Below, one piece after another: positions 34,384-57,427 of a stretch of DNA of 64,000 bases; positions within the stretch are counted from its first letter, which is position 1, and each line of letters opens with the position of its first letter. The notes beneath the pieces were generated by a model that was not told the origin of the DNA, made no database searches, and was given only the letters and a program-made list of their open reading frames with translations. Source of the DNA: Jiangella sp. DSM 45060 (GTDB lineage Bacteria; Actinomycetota; Actinomycetes; Jiangellales; Jiangellaceae). The position numbers and the translations under genes are program-made. The stretch lies in assembly GCF_900105175.1 (NCBI RefSeq), contig NZ_LT629771.1:6406622-6470621 (forward strand), given 5' to 3'.

Positions 34384-34483
34384 GCGTGCGGCGGTGGGGG
34401 GACGCCGGCAGGGGTAGGCTGCGGGCGTCCGAGCGAGGAACGAGCGAGGCGGGCGGGGCCGGCGTCCCCCCACCGCCGCACGC
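34384..34483 (+). repeat. Palindromic element, copy 1
   Basis: Perfect 26-bp arms (34384-34409 and 34458-34483) enclose a 48-nt core. Each arm's inner end is GCCGGC; the core carries CGAGCGAGG twice, two bases apart (34430-34438 and 34441-34449). It lies in the divergent gap between the hypothetical gene and nfo. The core is identical to copy 3 and differs by one base from copy 2, while the outer arm sequence is unique to this copy. Confidence 0.9.
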
Positions 34484-35369: not shown

Positions 35370-35437
35370 GGTGACGCCCGCAGCCCAGCCAGCCCGGTGT
35401 CCAGGTGACGCCCGCAGACCAGCGAGGCCGGTGTCCG
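35370..35437 (+). repeat. Two tandem 34-bp units overlapping palindromic element copy 2
   Basis: GGTGACGCCCGCAG starts at 35370 and again at 35404, and similarity continues through CCGGTGTCC, giving two imperfect 34-bp units. The left arm of palindromic element copy 2 lies within the end of the second unit, so that arm is made of sequence that also exists outside the element. Confidence 0.7.
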
Positions 35438-35519
35438 GGGATGCCGGCAGGGGTGGGCTGCGGGCGTCCGAGCGAGGAACGAGCGAGGCGGGCGGGGCCG
35501 GCATCCCCGGACACCGGCC
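35426..35519 (+). repeat. Palindromic element, copy 2
   Basis: Perfect 23-bp arms (35426-35448 and 35497-35519) around a 48-nt core differing from copy 1 at one base. The arm sequence (GGCCGGTGTCCGGGGAT before GCCGGC) is unrelated to the arms of the other copies beyond the inner GCCGGC. It lies between the convergent nfo and marR genes and could act as a bidirectional terminator there. Confidence 0.9.
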
Positions 35520-39012: not shown

Positions 39013-39104
39013 GGCTGCGGGTGGGGGCGCCGGCAGGGGTAGGCTGCGGGCGTCCGAGCGAGGAACGAGCGAGGCGGGCGGGGCCGGCGTCCCCACCCGC
39101 AGCC
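39013..39104 (+). repeat. Palindromic element, copy 3
   Basis: 22-bp arms (39013-39034 and 39083-39104), complementary at 21 positions; the one mismatch is a G-T pair that would still pair as G-U in RNA. The 48-nt core is identical to copy 1. GCAGACCA-n-CGAGGC precedes both this copy and copy 2. It lies between the convergent alanine-racemase-like gene and the decayed phosphotransferase gene. Confidence 0.9.
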
Positions 39105-51946: not shown

Positions 51947-53551
51947 ATGCGTCACAGGGGGTGGCTGGCGGGTGTCGTCGTCGGACTGACGGCGTGCACG
52001 GCCGCGGACGCCGAGCCGGGCGACGTCGCGACCGAGCCCGAGCAGCAGCGCTTCACCGGCACGTTCCTGGTGCTCGAGGACGCCGAGCACGGGCCTCAGG
52101 TGTGCTACGGCGGCGCCCTCTTCAGCAACCCGCCGAAGTGCGGTGGGCCGGACATCCCGAACTGGGACTGGTCCGCCGTCGAGCACGAGTCCGTCGACGG
52201 TGTCAGGTGGGGCGACTACCAGGTCACCGGCACGTTCGACGGCACCGAGTTCACCCTGACCGAGCCGGCCGGGCCACCCGAGCCGCCGGGCATGGACGAC
52301 GGGCGCCCCGACCTCGACGCGCTGCTCGACACGCCCTGCGAGGCGCCGCCGGAAGGCTGGGTGCTCGTCGACATCGCCACCGCGAGCACCGAGGTCCTTG
52401 ACGCCGTCGTCGACTACGCGGCGGCGCTGCCCGGCTACGGCGGCCTCTGGGTCGACCGCTCCGTCGAGCAGCCGCCGGGCGTTCCACCGTCGGCGGCCGC
52501 CGCGGCGGCGATCCTCAACGTCAGCTTCACCGGCGACCTCGCCGCGCGCGAGGCCGAGCTGCGCGCCGTCTGGGGCGGCGCGCTCTGCGTCACGCAGGCC
52601 CGGCACGAGCACAGCCGGCTGGAGGAGATCCAGGCCGAGCTGGCCGGTGAGTTCGGCATCTACTCGGCGAGCGTGTCGGGACCGGAAAACCTGGTCGAGG
52701 TCGACGCGTTCATCGACGACGGCCTGCAGGAGCAGCTCGACGAGACCTACGGTCCCGGCACGGTCCGGGTGACGTCCGCCCTGCGGCCCGTGCCGCCCGA
52801 CGACGCACCGACGATCTACGCGGGCACGTTCACCGTCATCGAGTCGCGCGACGGCGACGTGAACGCCTGCTCGATGGTCATGGAGTCCTATCCGCCCGGC
52901 TGCGGCGGCGGCTTCGAGCTGCGCGGCTGGTCCTGGGAAGACGTGCGTGGCGAAGAGTCGTCCGACGGCGTGACCTGGGGCGACTACCACATCAAGGGGA
53001 CCTGGGACGGCACCGCGCTGACGCTGACCGCGCCGCCGGAGCCACCGCCGCCGTCCGGCCCGCGTGAGGATCTGAGCCAGCGCTTCGACACGCCCTGCCC
53101 CACCCCGCCCGGCGGCTGGGCGATCCTCGACGGCGCGTTGACGCACGCGACCGACTTCCAGCGCGCCCACGCGTACGCCCTGGCCGCACCCGGCTACGTC
53201 GACTCCTGGCTGGACCGCCATGTCGCACCCGAGGCCCGGTCGGCGACGGCGCCGGCCGAGGTGATCGTGAACTTCCGGTTCACCGGCGACCTCGCCACCC
53301 ACGAAGCCGCGCTGCGGAGCCTGTACGGCGGCGCCATCTGCGTCAGCCAGGCCGAGCGCAGCCAGCAGGAGATGGAGGCGACCGGCGCCGAGATCGCGGC
53401 CGCGCACGACGCCCTCGCCTGGACGGTCGAGTCACCGGCGAACACGGTGTGGATCCAGGTGATCGTCGACGACGGCCTGCAGGAGCGGCTCGACGAGGAG
53501 TACGGGCCGGGCCTGGTACGGGTCGAGGCTCTGCTGAAGCCGGTGGACTGA
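51947..53551 (+). CDS. Lipoprotein with two copies of an unassigned Cys-conserved domain
   Basis: 534 residues. A lipoprotein signal (MRHRGWLAGVVVGLTAC; lipobox LTAC, Cys17) is followed by two homologous units, about 34-278 and 288-534. Each has TGTF-VLE, a Cys pair (VCYGG...KCGGPDI in unit 1), GV-WGDY--TGT-DGT-LT, TPC--PP-GW, FTGDLA--EA-LR--GG--CV, and an end block VDDGLQE-LDE-YGPG-VRV. Four Cys per unit recur in register, suggesting two disulfides. I do not recognise the family. The start ATG sits within a GTGAC-ATGC-GTCAC palindrome, with a promoter-like TACGTCCTAG just upstream, so the mRNA may be leaderless. A shorter paralogue follows immediately. Confidence 0.8.
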   Translation: MRHRGWLAGVVVGLTACTAADAEPGDVATEPEQQRFTGTFLVLEDAEHGPQVCYGGALFSNPPKCGGPDIPNWDWSAVEHESVDGVRWGDYQVTGTFDGTEFTLTEPAGPPEPPGMDDGRPDLDALLDTPCEAPPEGWVLVDIATASTEVLDAVVDYAAALPGYGGLWVDRSVEQPPGVPPSAAAAAAILNVSFTGDLAAREAELRAVWGGALCVTQARHEHSRLEEIQAELAGEFGIYSASVSGPENLVEVDAFIDDGLQEQLDETYGPGTVRVTSALRPVPPDDAPTIYAGTFTVIESRDGDVNACSMVMESYPPGCGGGFELRGWSWEDVRGEESSDGVTWGDYHIKGTWDGTALTLTAPPEPPPPSGPREDLSQRFDTPCPTPPGGWAILDGALTHATDFQRAHAYALAAPGYVDSWLDRHVAPEARSATAPAEVIVNFRFTGDLATHEAALRSLYGGAICVSQAERSQQEMEATGAEIAAAHDALAWTVESPANTVWIQVIVDDGLQERLDEEYGPGLVRVEALLKPVD

Positions 53552-53596
53552 CGCGTGGCGCCGGAACGTCGCGACCGCCGACGCCGTCCAAGTGGC

Positions 53597-54436
53597 ATGC
53601 GTCACTTCGGGTGGATCCTCGCCGCGCCGGTCGCGGCCCTGCTGCTCGCCGCCTGCGGCGATGAGGAGGCGCCCCGCAGCGCCTCACCGTCGGACGAACC
53701 ATCGTCCACCAACCCCGGTCAGCTCTACACCGGCGTCTTCACCGTCCTCGAGGGCTGGGGGCACGGCCCGCAGTTGTGCTCCGGCGTGCGGGAGTCCTTT
53801 CCCCCACAGTGCGGCGGTCCCGACATCGCCGGCTGGAACTGGGACGAGGCGCCCGACGCCGAGTCGGCCGATGGCGTCACGTGGGGGTTCTACTCCGTCA
53901 CGGGCACCTGGGACGGCACCCGCTTCACGCTGACCGAGCCGCCGCTGGCCGGCACCGCCACCTCGCCGGTGGCCCCCGACGCCTCCGAGTTCGATTTCTC
54001 GCCGCCGTGCGAGCCACCGGCCGGCGGCTGGGTCGTCGTCGACGCCGCCACCGCTGACGAGGCGGGCCGTGCGGCGGCCGAGGACTATGCGTACGCCCAG
54101 CCCGACTTCGCCGGCACCTGGATCGACAGTCTCGCCCGGCCCAACATCCTCACGTTCAGCTTCACCGGCGACCTCGAGACCCACGAGGCCGCGCTGCGCG
54201 GTCTCTGGGGCGGTCCGCTGTGCGTCACCGGGGCGGAGCGCAGCATGCAGGAGCTGATCGCGATCCAGGACGAGATCGTCGCCGCCGGCCCCGGCGTTCC
54301 GGCGACCGCCCTCGACCTCGTCAGCGGGGAAGTGACGCTGGACGTGTTCGTCGAGGACGGGCAGCAGGCCGAGCTGGACGAGCGGTACGGCGAGGGCGTC
54401 GTCCGGGTGAGCGCCGCGCTGCGGCCGGTCGAGTGA
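53597..54436 (+). CDS. Lipoprotein with one copy of the same Cys-conserved domain
   Basis: 279 residues. Signal with a perfect lipobox (LLAAC, Cys20), a Ser/Pro-rich linker and one unit like those of the preceding gene: LYTGVFTVLEG, LCSG...QCGGPDIAGWNWDE, GVTWGFYSVTGTWDGTRFTLTEPP, PCEPPAGGWVVVDAAT, FTGDLETHEAALRGLWGGPLCV and a VEDGQQAELDERYGEGVVRVSAALRPVE end. All four Cys of the unit are kept. ATG 53597 is preferred to an upstream frame start because it gives the lipobox and matches the MRH start of the paralogue. It probably arose by duplication; function unknown. Confidence 0.8.
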   Translation: MRHFGWILAAPVAALLLAACGDEEAPRSASPSDEPSSTNPGQLYTGVFTVLEGWGHGPQLCSGVRESFPPQCGGPDIAGWNWDEAPDAESADGVTWGFYSVTGTWDGTRFTLTEPPLAGTATSPVAPDASEFDFSPPCEPPAGGWVVVDAATADEAGRAAAEDYAYAQPDFAGTWIDSLARPNILTFSFTGDLETHEAALRGLWGGPLCVTGAERSMQELIAIQDEIVAAGPGVPATALDLVSGEVTLDVFVEDGQQAELDERYGEGVVRVSAALRPVE

Positions 54437-54495: not shown

Positions 54496-55533
54496 ATGAG
54501 TGGTCACGCGATCGTCGTCGGCAGCACCGGCCAGATCGGCCGCGCCGCCGTGGAGTCCCTGCTCGACGACGGCTGGTCGGTCACGGCCGTGCACCGGGGC
54601 AGCACCGAAGCGCCGTCCGGCTGGGCGCGGCGCGGCGTCGACGAGCGGCTGGCCGACCGCGCGGACCTCGCCGGTGTGCTGCGCGAGACCGGCGGCGCCG
54701 ACGTCCTGCTCGACACCATCGCCTACGACGACGCCGACGCGCGGCTGCTGCTCGGCCTGGCCGGCGACGTCGGCTCGCTGATCGTCGCCTCCAGCGCCTC
54801 GGTGTACGCCGACGACGCGGGCCGCACCCTGGACGAGGCGACCGGGCCGGACGACTTCCCGCGCTTCGCCGCGCCCGTCCCGGAGACCCAGGCGACGGTG
54901 CCGCCCGGCCCGGCCACGTACTCGACGCGGAAGATGCTGCTGGAGCAGACCCTGCTCGACGACGGACGGCTACCGGTCACCGTGCTGCGGCCGTGCGCCA
55001 TCCACGGCCCCGGCAGCACCAGCCCGCGCGAGGTCTGGCCGCTGCTGCGCGCGCTGGACCGCCGGCCGCGCATCCCGCTGGCGCACGGCGGGCACAGCCG
55101 GTTCCACACCACGAGCGCGCCGAACCTCGGCGAGCTGGTCCGGCTCGCGGCGGCGCGCCCGGGCGGCCGCGTCCTCAACGCCGGCGACCCGGAGCCGCCG
55201 TCCGTCGCCGACATCGTCCTGGCCGTCAGCGCGACCGCCGGTCACGAGCCGGAACTGGTGCCGCTGGACGGTGCGCCGGAGTCGCGGGTGGGCCGCACCC
55301 CGTGGTCGGTGCCGCGCCCGTTCCTCGTCTCCATGACGGCGGCGGCGACGGAGCTGGGCTACGCGCCGGTCGCGACCTACGCCGAGGCGGTCGAGTGGAC
55401 GTCGGCCTGGCTGCGCGGCCGGCTGGCCGAGCGGCCGTGGCGCGAGGCGTTCCCGCTGCTGGCGCAGTTCTACGGCGACGCGATGGACGACTACGCCGCC
55501 GAGGACGAGCTGCTCGCGTCGCGCCGGAACTGA
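54496..55533 (+). CDS. NAD-dependent epimerase/dehydratase (SDR-like)
   Basis: 345 residues, extended SDR fold: Rossmann motif IVVGSTGQIGRAAVE (5-19), SSASVYAD, and YSTRKMLLEQTLL (Tyr-x-x-x-Lys-like; YSTRK) near residue 138. Downstream PCAIHGPGSTSPREVWPLLRAL. It resembles UDP-sugar epimerase-like or isoflavone-reductase-like proteins; the substrate is unknown. A TTAGCGT -10 seven bases or so before the ATG implies a leaderless mRNA. The end overlaps the DUF3054 gene on the other strand by 43 bases. Confidence 0.85.
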   Translation: MSGHAIVVGSTGQIGRAAVESLLDDGWSVTAVHRGSTEAPSGWARRGVDERLADRADLAGVLRETGGADVLLDTIAYDDADARLLLGLAGDVGSLIVASSASVYADDAGRTLDEATGPDDFPRFAAPVPETQATVPPGPATYSTRKMLLEQTLLDDGRLPVTVLRPCAIHGPGSTSPREVWPLLRALDRRPRIPLAHGGHSRFHTTSAPNLGELVRLAAARPGGRVLNAGDPEPPSVADIVLAVSATAGHEPELVPLDGAPESRVGRTPWSVPRPFLVSMTAAATELGYAPVATYAEAVEWTSAWLRGRLAERPWREAFPLLAQFYGDAMDDYAAEDELLASRRN

Positions 55534-55964
55534 CGCGCCACGACCCGCCAGCCGACCAGGAACGCGCCCAGCACCAGCGTCGCCACGGCGACGAACGAGG
55601 GCGCTGTCCCCTGGCCCGACGCCGCCCGCAGCAGCATGCCGACGGCCACCGTCGCCATCCACACAGTGACGCCGGTCGCGAGGGACGCAGGGTGGCGGCG
55701 GGGAGAGCGGGGGCCGGGGGATGCCGGCAGGGGTTGGCTCGGGCGTCCGAGCGAGGAACGAGCGAGGCGGGCGGGGCCGGCATCCCCCGGCCCCCGCCAC
55801 CGAAGCGCGATCAGCGTCCATGTCAGAGCGAGCCCGGCCAGGAACGGCCATGCCGTGCGGGCCAGCCCGGCCAGCGACAGCGGATCGTCGTGCGTCCGCC
55901 GTCCGATCAGCACGAACACCAGCACCAGGACGACGTCGACGGCGAGCGCCGGCCCCGTTCTCAC
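55491..55964 (-). CDS. DUF3054 membrane protein carrying an in-frame palindromic element
   Basis: 157 residues; DUF3054 proteins are usually near 120-130. The four-helix pattern is clear: VDVVLVLVFVLIGRRTHDD (helix 1), AWPFLAGLALTWTLIAL (helix 2, to about 54), then TGVTVWMATVAVGMLLRAASGQGT and FVAVATLVLGAFLVGWRVVA. Between helices 2 and 3, residues about 57-89 (GPGDAGPARLARSSLGRP and on) are encoded by palindromic element copy 4 and have no counterpart in the family. GTG 55964 overlaps the CCA-transferase stop (GTGA). The insert keeps the frame open, so the protein probably still folds with an enlarged loop. Confidence 0.82.
   Translation of the reverse strand: MRTGPALAVDVVLVLVFVLIGRRTHDDPLSLAGLARTAWPFLAGLALTWTLIALRWRGPGDAGPARLARSSLGRPSQPLPASPGPRSPRRHPASLATGVTVWMATVAVGMLLRAASGQGTAPSFVAVATLVLGAFLVGWRVVARQFRRDASSSSSAA
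55707..55797 (+). repeat. Palindromic element, copy 4, inside the DUF3054 gene
   Basis: Perfect 22-bp arms (55707-55728 and 55776-55797) around a core of 47 nt, one base shorter than in the other three copies. The CGAGCGAGG pair and inner GCCGGC are conserved. The arm sequence is unique to this copy. It lies wholly within the coding region of the DUF3054 gene, antisense to it. Confidence 0.9.
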
Positions 55965-57427
55965 GCCGAGGCCTCCGGCTGCTCGGACCACCACCGCAGC
56001 AGCTCCGCCCGCGCGTCGTCCTCGGACAGCACGCCGTGGTCGAGCCGGACCTCGAGCAGGTGGTGGTAGGCGCGGCCGACCAGCGGGCCCGGCCGGATGC
56101 CCAGGATCTGCATGATCTGGTTGCCGTCGAGGTCGGGCCGGATGGCGGCCAGCTCTTCCTCTTCTGCCAGCCGGGAGATGCGCTCCTCGAGGCTGTCGTA
56201 CGACTGCTGCAAGGCCAGCGCCTTGCGCCGGTTGCGCGTCGTGCTGTCGGCGCGGGTCAGGACGTGCAACCGCTCGACCTCCGGCCCGGCGTCGCGGACG
56301 TAGCGGCGCACCGCGGAGTCGGTCCACTCGCCGCCGCCGTAGCCGTGGAAGCGCAGGTGCAGCTGGATGAGCTGGGTGACGCTGTCGATGACGGCGGACG
56401 GGTAGCGCAGCGCCGTGAGCCGCTTGCGGGCCAGCTTCGCGCCGACGACGTCGTGGTGGTGGAAGCTCACGCCGCCGCCGGCCTCGAACTTGCGGGTGCG
56501 CGGCTTGCCGATGTCGTGCAGCAGCGCCGCCAGCCGGGTGACGAGGTCGGGGCCGCCGCCGGGCAGCCGCCGCTCCAGCTCGATGGCCTGCTCGAGCACC
56601 GTCAGCGAGTGCTCGTAGACGTCCTTGTGCCGGTGGTGCTCGTCGATCTCGAGCCGCAGCGCGGGCAGCTCGGGCAGCACGTGGCCGGCGATGCCGGTGT
56701 CGACCAGCAGCGTCAGCCCGGTGCGCGGCGCCGACGACAGCAACAGCTTGGTCAGCTCGTCGCGGACCCGCTCGGCCGACACGATGTCGATGCGCCCGGC
56801 CATGTCGGTCATCGCGGCGACCACCTCGGGCGCCACCTCGAAGCCGAGCTGCGACGCGAACCGCGCGGCGCGCATCATGCGGAGGGGGTCGTCGGAGAAC
56901 GACTGCTCCGGCGTGCCGGGCGTGCGGATGACCCGGCTGCCGAGGTCGGCCAGCCCGCCGAACGGGTCGACGAACTCGCGGCCGGGCAGCAGCACCGCCA
57001 TGGCGTTGACGGTGAAGTCGCGGCGCAGGAGGTCGTCGGTGATGGACGCGCCGTACGCGACCGCCGGCTTGCGGCTGGCGGGGTCGTAGCTGTCGGCGCG
57101 GTACGTGGTGATCTCGATCTGGAAGCCGTCCTTGGTGCCGCCGATGGTGCCGAACTTCTGCCCGACGTCCCACAGGCTGTCGACCCACCCCGCGAGCAGG
57201 CGCTTCGTCTCTTCGGGCCGGGCCGACGTGGTGAAGTCGAGGTCCTGGCCCAGACGGTCGAGCAGGGCGTCGCGGACGGAGCCGCCGACCAGCGCCAGCT
57301 CGTGCCCGGCGGCCTGGAAACGAGCGCCCAGTTCGTCGGCGACGGGCGCGATGCGCAGCAACTGCCGCACCGCCTGCCGCTGCGCCTTCGAGAGCACGTG
57401 GTTCGCCGCTTCCTTCGTTCCGATCAC
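55961..57427 (-). CDS. CCA tRNA nucleotidyltransferase
   Basis: 488 residues. Nucleotidyltransferase head: ALVGGSVRDALLDRLGQDLDFTT (G-G-x-V-R-D and catalytic DxD), RRDFTVNAMAV and SFSDDPLRMMRAARFASQLGF. An HD-type module follows (YEHSLTVLEQAIE; RLAALLHDIGKPRT; FHHHDVVGAKLA), which bacterial CCA enzymes use for repair phosphatase/phosphodiesterase activity. It restores the 3'-CCA of tRNAs. GTG 57427 is chosen because the family N-terminus starts near here. Its divergent NUDIX neighbour and order match the mycobacterial pcnA/mutT4 region. Confidence 0.94.
   Translation of the reverse strand: MIGTKEAANHVLSKAQRQAVRQLLRIAPVADELGARFQAAGHELALVGGSVRDALLDRLGQDLDFTTSARPEETKRLLAGWVDSLWDVGQKFGTIGGTKDGFQIEITTYRADSYDPASRKPAVAYGASITDDLLRRDFTVNAMAVLLPGREFVDPFGGLADLGSRVIRTPGTPEQSFSDDPLRMMRAARFASQLGFEVAPEVVAAMTDMAGRIDIVSAERVRDELTKLLLSSAPRTGLTLLVDTGIAGHVLPELPALRLEIDEHHRHKDVYEHSLTVLEQAIELERRLPGGGPDLVTRLAALLHDIGKPRTRKFEAGGGVSFHHHDVVGAKLARKRLTALRYPSAVIDSVTQLIQLHLRFHGYGGGEWTDSAVRRYVRDAGPEVERLHVLTRADSTTRNRRKALALQQSYDSLEERISRLAEEEELAAIRPDLDGNQIMQILGIRPGPLVGRAYHHLLEVRLDHGVLSEDDARAELLRWWSEQPEASA

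Follow-up and report, generated by a model that had tools for sequence, protein, structure and literature searches.

A palindromic repeat with a near-invariant loop and covarying arms lies in frame within a DUF3054 membrane-protein gene of Jiangella

We analyzed a 64,000-nucleotide stretch (the window) of the Jiangella sp. DSM 45060 genome, designated G000. It contains a gene for a DUF3054 membrane protein interrupted in frame by a palindromic element (Table 1). The open reading frame matches PF11255 (DUF3054) in two stretches, with an E-value of 8e-28 and 97.4 bits against a gathering score of 25. Its start codon overlaps the stop codon of cca, as it does in relatives, and this overlap makes translational coupling of the two genes likely. 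A preliminary description of this DNA had listed four copies of the element in the window, and all four are real. Several diverged direct repeats at 52187–54436 of the window (D1, D3, D5, D7, and D8) reflect the duplication of a domain in a pair of neighboring genes.

Table 1. Genes and element features in the window
Feature	Position	Strand	Remarks
Element copy 1	34388..34479	+	intergenic
Element copy 2	35427..35518	+	between convergent deoxyribonuclease IV and MarR genes
Element copy 3	39013..39104	+	3' of alanine-racemase-like gene
NAD-dependent reductase/epimerase-like gene	54496..55533	+	convergent; 3' end overlaps DUF3054 3' end
DUF3054 membrane-protein gene	55491..55964	-	157 codons, GTG start
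Element copy 4	55707..55797	+	palindromic, 91 nt, antisense to DUF3054; encodes about residues 56-86
Left hairpin arm of copy 4	55707..55728	+	22 nt; GCGGGGGCCGGGGGATGCCGGC
Near-invariant loop of copy 4	55729..55775	+	47 nt; AGGGGTTGGCTCGGGCGTCCGAGCGAGGAACGAGCGAGGCGGGCGGG
Core within loop	55748..55766	+	CGAGCGAG-GAA-CGAGCGAG
Right hairpin arm of copy 4	55776..55797	+	22 nt; exact complement of left arm
CCA tRNA nucleotidyltransferase gene (cca)	55961..57427	-	immediately upstream of DUF3054

The fourth copy had been described as a dispersed palindromic element inserted in frame in the DUF3054 gene, and alignment with orthologues, dN/dS, and the predicted fold of the protein support this. Element-free Jiangella orthologues are 121–125 aa long, so that the gene without its insert has the normal DUF3054 length, as had been proposed. 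Because the insert-free orthologue of G010 (J. muralis) has 124 aa compared with 157 aa here, the net gain is 33 codons, in agreement with the 30–33 extra residues originally ascribed to the element copy. In the alignment, the insert is absent from G010, G002, G007, G009, G011, G003, and the outgroup G018, with neither gap nor scar at the site. The orthologues of G004, G008, and G005 carry truncated, in-frame "DAGP" pieces at the same codons.

An AF2 model of the protein, built on an alignment of 14 sequences and of moderate confidence (mean pLDDT 66.8), predicts helices at residues 4–24, 31–56, 93–116, and 122–156, with residues 57–92 as coil. With moderate confidence, the insert would thus fall in the variable, Arg-rich loop that joins membrane helices 2 and 3, in agreement with its placement between these helices in the preliminary description. 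The dN/dS of DUF3054 is 0.38 for G000–G004 and 0.30 for G000–G010, compared with 0.30 for G004–G010 and 0.27–0.72 for other pairs. Judged by these ratios, which resemble those of element-free relatives, the gene is under purifying selection, and with its insert it looks alive. The protein is small and fast evolving, as might be expected of a pseudogene or silent gene in which the insertion is neutral debris. We nevertheless regard such decay as very improbable: the frame is open, dN/dS is unchanged, the start overlaps the cca stop as in relatives, and the remnants in other species keep the frame too.

Copy 4 is one base shorter than the other three copies in the window, as had been noted, although the special role in keeping the frame open suggested for the missing base does not hold. 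The 91-nt form, with its one-base-shorter loop, accounts for 27 of 51 Jiangella copies, next to 22 of 92 nt and 2 of 90 nt; the short loop is therefore an ordinary, pre-existing subtype and gives no evidence of frame repair. Even so, only some element lengths could have kept the DUF3054 frame.

Species with a filled site do not form one clade in the species tree, which allows one ancestral insertion followed by several exact losses as well as repeated insertion into a single DUF3054 loop; one of the two has to be assumed. If the insert were ancestral to most of the genus, the insert-free genes would be precise deletions and the normal length a derived state. Such a history would fit the remnants found at identical codons in three species that do not group together (G004, G005, and G008), and also a clean loss via a 7-bp direct repeat at another site (L074 compared with G004). 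It would, however, need at least three exact losses, and the six insert-free Jiangella genes and that of the outgroup show no gap or scar; we consider an ancestral insert rather unlikely. At one element site, a CCGGAGG direct repeat may be either a target-site duplication or a deletion junction.

DUF3054 is not the only host gene. A UbiA-like prenyltransferase gene (PF01040) harbors an intact in-frame copy in both G006 (J. asiatica) and G004, and the corresponding gene of G003 contains a decayed, inverted copy. A further in-frame copy occupies a SARP/NB-ARC/TPR regulator of J. anatolica (G005), whereas six other orthologues are without it. As read from these genes, in-frame insertion recurs in three of them (DUF3054, UbiA-like, and SARP/NB-ARC), which agrees with the behavior like that of Rickettsia palindromic elements foreseen for the window copy. 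Since strand and frame differ between the host genes, the encoded peptide differs and is unlikely to be the selected feature.

Other palindromic repeats occur near the same genes. The UbiA loop of G001, G010, G008, G009, and G011 (L274–L278) holds a different, unrelated repeat, also in frame, which is a doublet like GCTGGAGGTCTGCCGTC...GACGGCAGACCTCCAGC. On the 3' side of DUF3054 in L014 (G011), L015 (G009), and L017 (G007) there is a third palindromic repeat, whose ends, CGTTGATCTTGGAGTT...AACTCCAAGATCAACG, are constant. It is abundant in some Jiangella, with 71 end motifs in G007, 42 in G002, and 41 in G008, and is absent from G000, G004, and G005.

The architecture of the element is unusual in that its loop of about 47 nt is almost invariant in Jiangella, while its 22–26-bp arms vary from copy to copy yet stay complementary. 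Across 45 copies, the 22 arm pairs show 96.9% standard pairing, and 17 of them have changed on both sides. Window copy 1 has hairpin z-scores of -6.0 and -5.2 for its two strands, and the arm covariation score of 0.58 (0.14 after shuffling) was reached in none of 500 shuffles; the hairpin is therefore not a product of chance. Cells in the arms changed on both sides number 213, compared with 67 in shuffled alignments. Where G000 and G004 have orthologous copies with flanks 93–98% identical, the arms can differ strongly and remain paired, and at one such site a 2-bp insertion is present in each arm; in G002, each arm of a copy shows a 1-bp deletion. Where orthologous stems are intact, changes fall mostly on both arms, and the loops differ at 3 of 576 compared positions. 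At L236 of G004, orthologous to the L076 site, a different hairpin, CCCCTTTGCAATGAGCACCTC...GAGGTGCTCATTGCAAAGGGG, stands where G000 has an element. Sister genera have a different but equally constant loop, and all 22 of their arm pairs vary on both sides; pairing is 97.1% and covariation 0.93 (0.19 shuffled), figures that lean toward the structure because the alignment was fitted to it. The core may itself fold antiparallel, and we infer C–G pairs alternating with tandem G·A pairs.

The family is dispersed through the genomes of Jiangella, a genus of soil actinomycetes, and the window genome has 23 copies. The exact core is present in 10 of 12 Jiangella genomes, and a scan of 48 other genomes gave no match; diverged copies in G008 extend the family to 11 of the 12, and no copy was found in the twelfth, G009. 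With a covariance model, the family or its relatives were detected in 18 of 198 actinomycete genomes, 15 of which belong to the same taxonomic family. Most copies lie 3' of genes or between convergent genes, close to stop codons. Among 60 Jiangella copies, 33 have a convergent, 21 a co-directional, and 2 a divergent context and 3 are inside genes; the genes were called with a home-made program based on codon usage, which overlooks DUF3054, and the copy there is not included. Because only about 4 of some 60 copies are inside genes, the family is not targeted to coding sequence; copies occur inside genes only where they are in frame in a loop or linker. Exact half-motifs lie nearly all within full copies, and we rejected half elements as a separate repeat. 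The gene flanked by copies 1 and 2, considered as a REPtron-like candidate, is deoxyribonuclease IV and is conserved with or without elements.

The 20-nt core by itself is widespread across actinomycetes, a distribution that is at least this wide; among the matches listed, almost all are from actinomycetes and none from Rickettsia. It does not mark one actinomycete-wide family, as clearly long paired arms accompany it only in Luteimicrobium, Isoptericola, part of Arthrobacter, and one Jatrophihabitans copy, and pairing of the core flanks in Nocardioides and Microbacterium is not above the swapped control. The Luteimicrobium and Isoptericola loci (L101, L128, L133, L142, L147, L148, and L165) and the Jatrophihabitans locus L136 are hairpins with site-specific arms of 20–31 bp and a common loop, CTGGCGGGAGC-CGAGCGAGGAACGAGCGAGG-CGGATGG, and represent the design of the Jiangella element in other actinomycete groups. 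In Intrasporangium, Arsenicicoccus, and relatives (L079, L099, L114, L143, and L177), tandem repeats of about 80 nt carry the same 20-nt core; they begin at the stop codon of a gene and seem to include its last codons. A phage search gave no match and a plasmid search one weak match, and among viral contigs the bare 20-mer alone occurs in 3; a phage or plasmid source was rejected for want of a meaningful match.

Could the element be a structured RNA, such as a 3' UTR hairpin, a bidirectional terminator, or a protein-binding site? Selection on the RNA fold would then produce the arm covariation, and the copies inside genes would be strays. The position of copies near stop codons and between convergent genes, the strong fold with its covarying arms, and the invariance of the loop at orthologous sites whose flanks diverge would all suit such a role. 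Against it, no run of TTTT, as in a Rho-independent terminator, is present in any of 51 copies or in the flanks inspected, and co-directional copies occur in both orientations (15 sense and 6 antisense, orthologues counted). Close relatives have also lost or truncated the element at many sites. Rfam covariance models did not match the element, and we rejected a known RNA family. Mismatches in the arms are about equally often GT (25) and AC (21) and so give no hint that one RNA strand is under selection; with no wobble bias, we discarded strand-specific RNA selection. Nor were the arms terminators that existed before insertion, as there is no intact palindrome at empty sites (the L073 and L074 sites in G004 and the SARP orthologues). 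On balance, a structured RNA seems to us a possible but less likely account.

In size, dispersal, and palindromic form the element also resembles MITEs and REPs, and a known transposase might then have moved it, either of the RAYT/IS200 type or from an IS with matching ends; GTAG is present in the Jiangella loop. GTAG is missing, however, from the loops of sister genera. The Y1_Tnp (RAYT) transposase was found in none of the 12 Jiangella genomes, with control genomes positive, and we rejected a RAYT/IS200 mobilizer; neither another mobilizing enzyme nor a partner IS with matching terminal inverted repeats was identified. The ends of the element are its most variable part and its middle is constant, the reverse of what end recognition by a transposase would give. 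We consider this origin improbable.

The explanation we prefer, and think probable, is that a non-autonomous, REP-like hairpin repeat of Jiangella inserted into DUF3054 and was tolerated in a loop, with its arms kept matched. The insertion would have survived because its net length is a multiple of three, its frame is without a stop, and the site is a variable, Arg-rich loop. The inserted peptide would act as a passive, probably disordered linker. Arm matching may arise because one arm repeatedly templates the rewriting of the other, through hairpin-templated repair or template switching; selection for the hairpin is a possible addition or alternative. We favor copying of arm from arm at the DNA level because the near-equal GT and AC mismatches give no signal of selection on a single RNA strand. 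Mobility would depend on an enzyme acting in trans. Peptide tolerance, arm correction, and mobility in trans are what we infer from these patterns. A bolder and doubtful extension is that hairpin elements of the Jiangellaceae are the reverse of MITEs: a constant apical loop would be the mobile part, hairpin-templated copying would create or rewrite its arms site by site, with undescribed machinery recognizing the loop and protein loops donated repeatedly in frame.

Natural pairs of genes with and without the insert make its effect on the proteins directly testable. The element itself, with its constant loop and its site-specific yet well-paired arms, prompts one to ask how a 24-bp palindrome alters its two arms in concert while genomes diverge by a few percent. 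The preliminary description had expected an actinomycete case to be new, and it appears to be: in the literature searched (open-licence papers only), we found no in-frame palindromic insert in an actinomycete, nor the core sequence or Jiangella palindromes. For this reason we describe the in-frame insertion as a new instance of a phenomenon already on record.

Earlier examples of in-frame palindromic inserts come from Rickettsia and enterobacteria (PMC2229807) and from REP-rich species (PMC3733652); in Rickettsia, one protein put to the test remains active (PMC2229807). Like the Jiangella element, Rickettsia palindromic elements (RPEs) are palindromes of about 100 nt found both between genes and in frame in conserved protein genes, with the peptide apparently tolerated (PMC2229807). 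RPEs are defined as palindromes of about 105–146 bp in frame in protein genes; the Jiangella element behaves in this way with a paired unit of about 91–100 nt. It differs in that most of its copies are intergenic, and a constant loop with copy-specific arms does not figure in the RPE descriptions consulted; the likeness of the two is one of behavior. GTAG/CGTC REPs likewise lie near stop codons, in convergent as well as co-directional intergenic regions, and in some cases inside ORFs (PMC3733652). These REPs are 20–40 bp long with a terminal tag and, in the CGTC type, 8–9 bp stems, and the paper describing them does not mention actinobacteria (PMC3733652); the Jiangella element, in contrast, has stems of 22–26 bp, a loop of 47 nt, and no RAYT, and the motifs lie within its loop rather than terminally and are absent from sister genera. 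ERIC/RU-1, YPAL/RU-2, and other bacterial MITEs are also small non-autonomous repeats, some of them fused in frame to genes (PMC2229807). MITE ends are conserved, often with a target duplication (PMC2229807), whereas in Jiangella the ends vary and the center is constant. The core, an AGCGA-containing purine strand that could form G·A-paired folds, recalls AGCGA-quadruplex DNA (PMC5442326), although the latter is human regulatory DNA and the likeness is one of sequence alone. Set beside these known kinds, the Jiangella element, whose loop is constant and whose variable arms stay matched, is a new variation. Overall, the three Jiangella host genes add a free-living actinomycete genus to the range of in-frame palindromic insertion, which is best known in Rickettsia and some proteobacteria.
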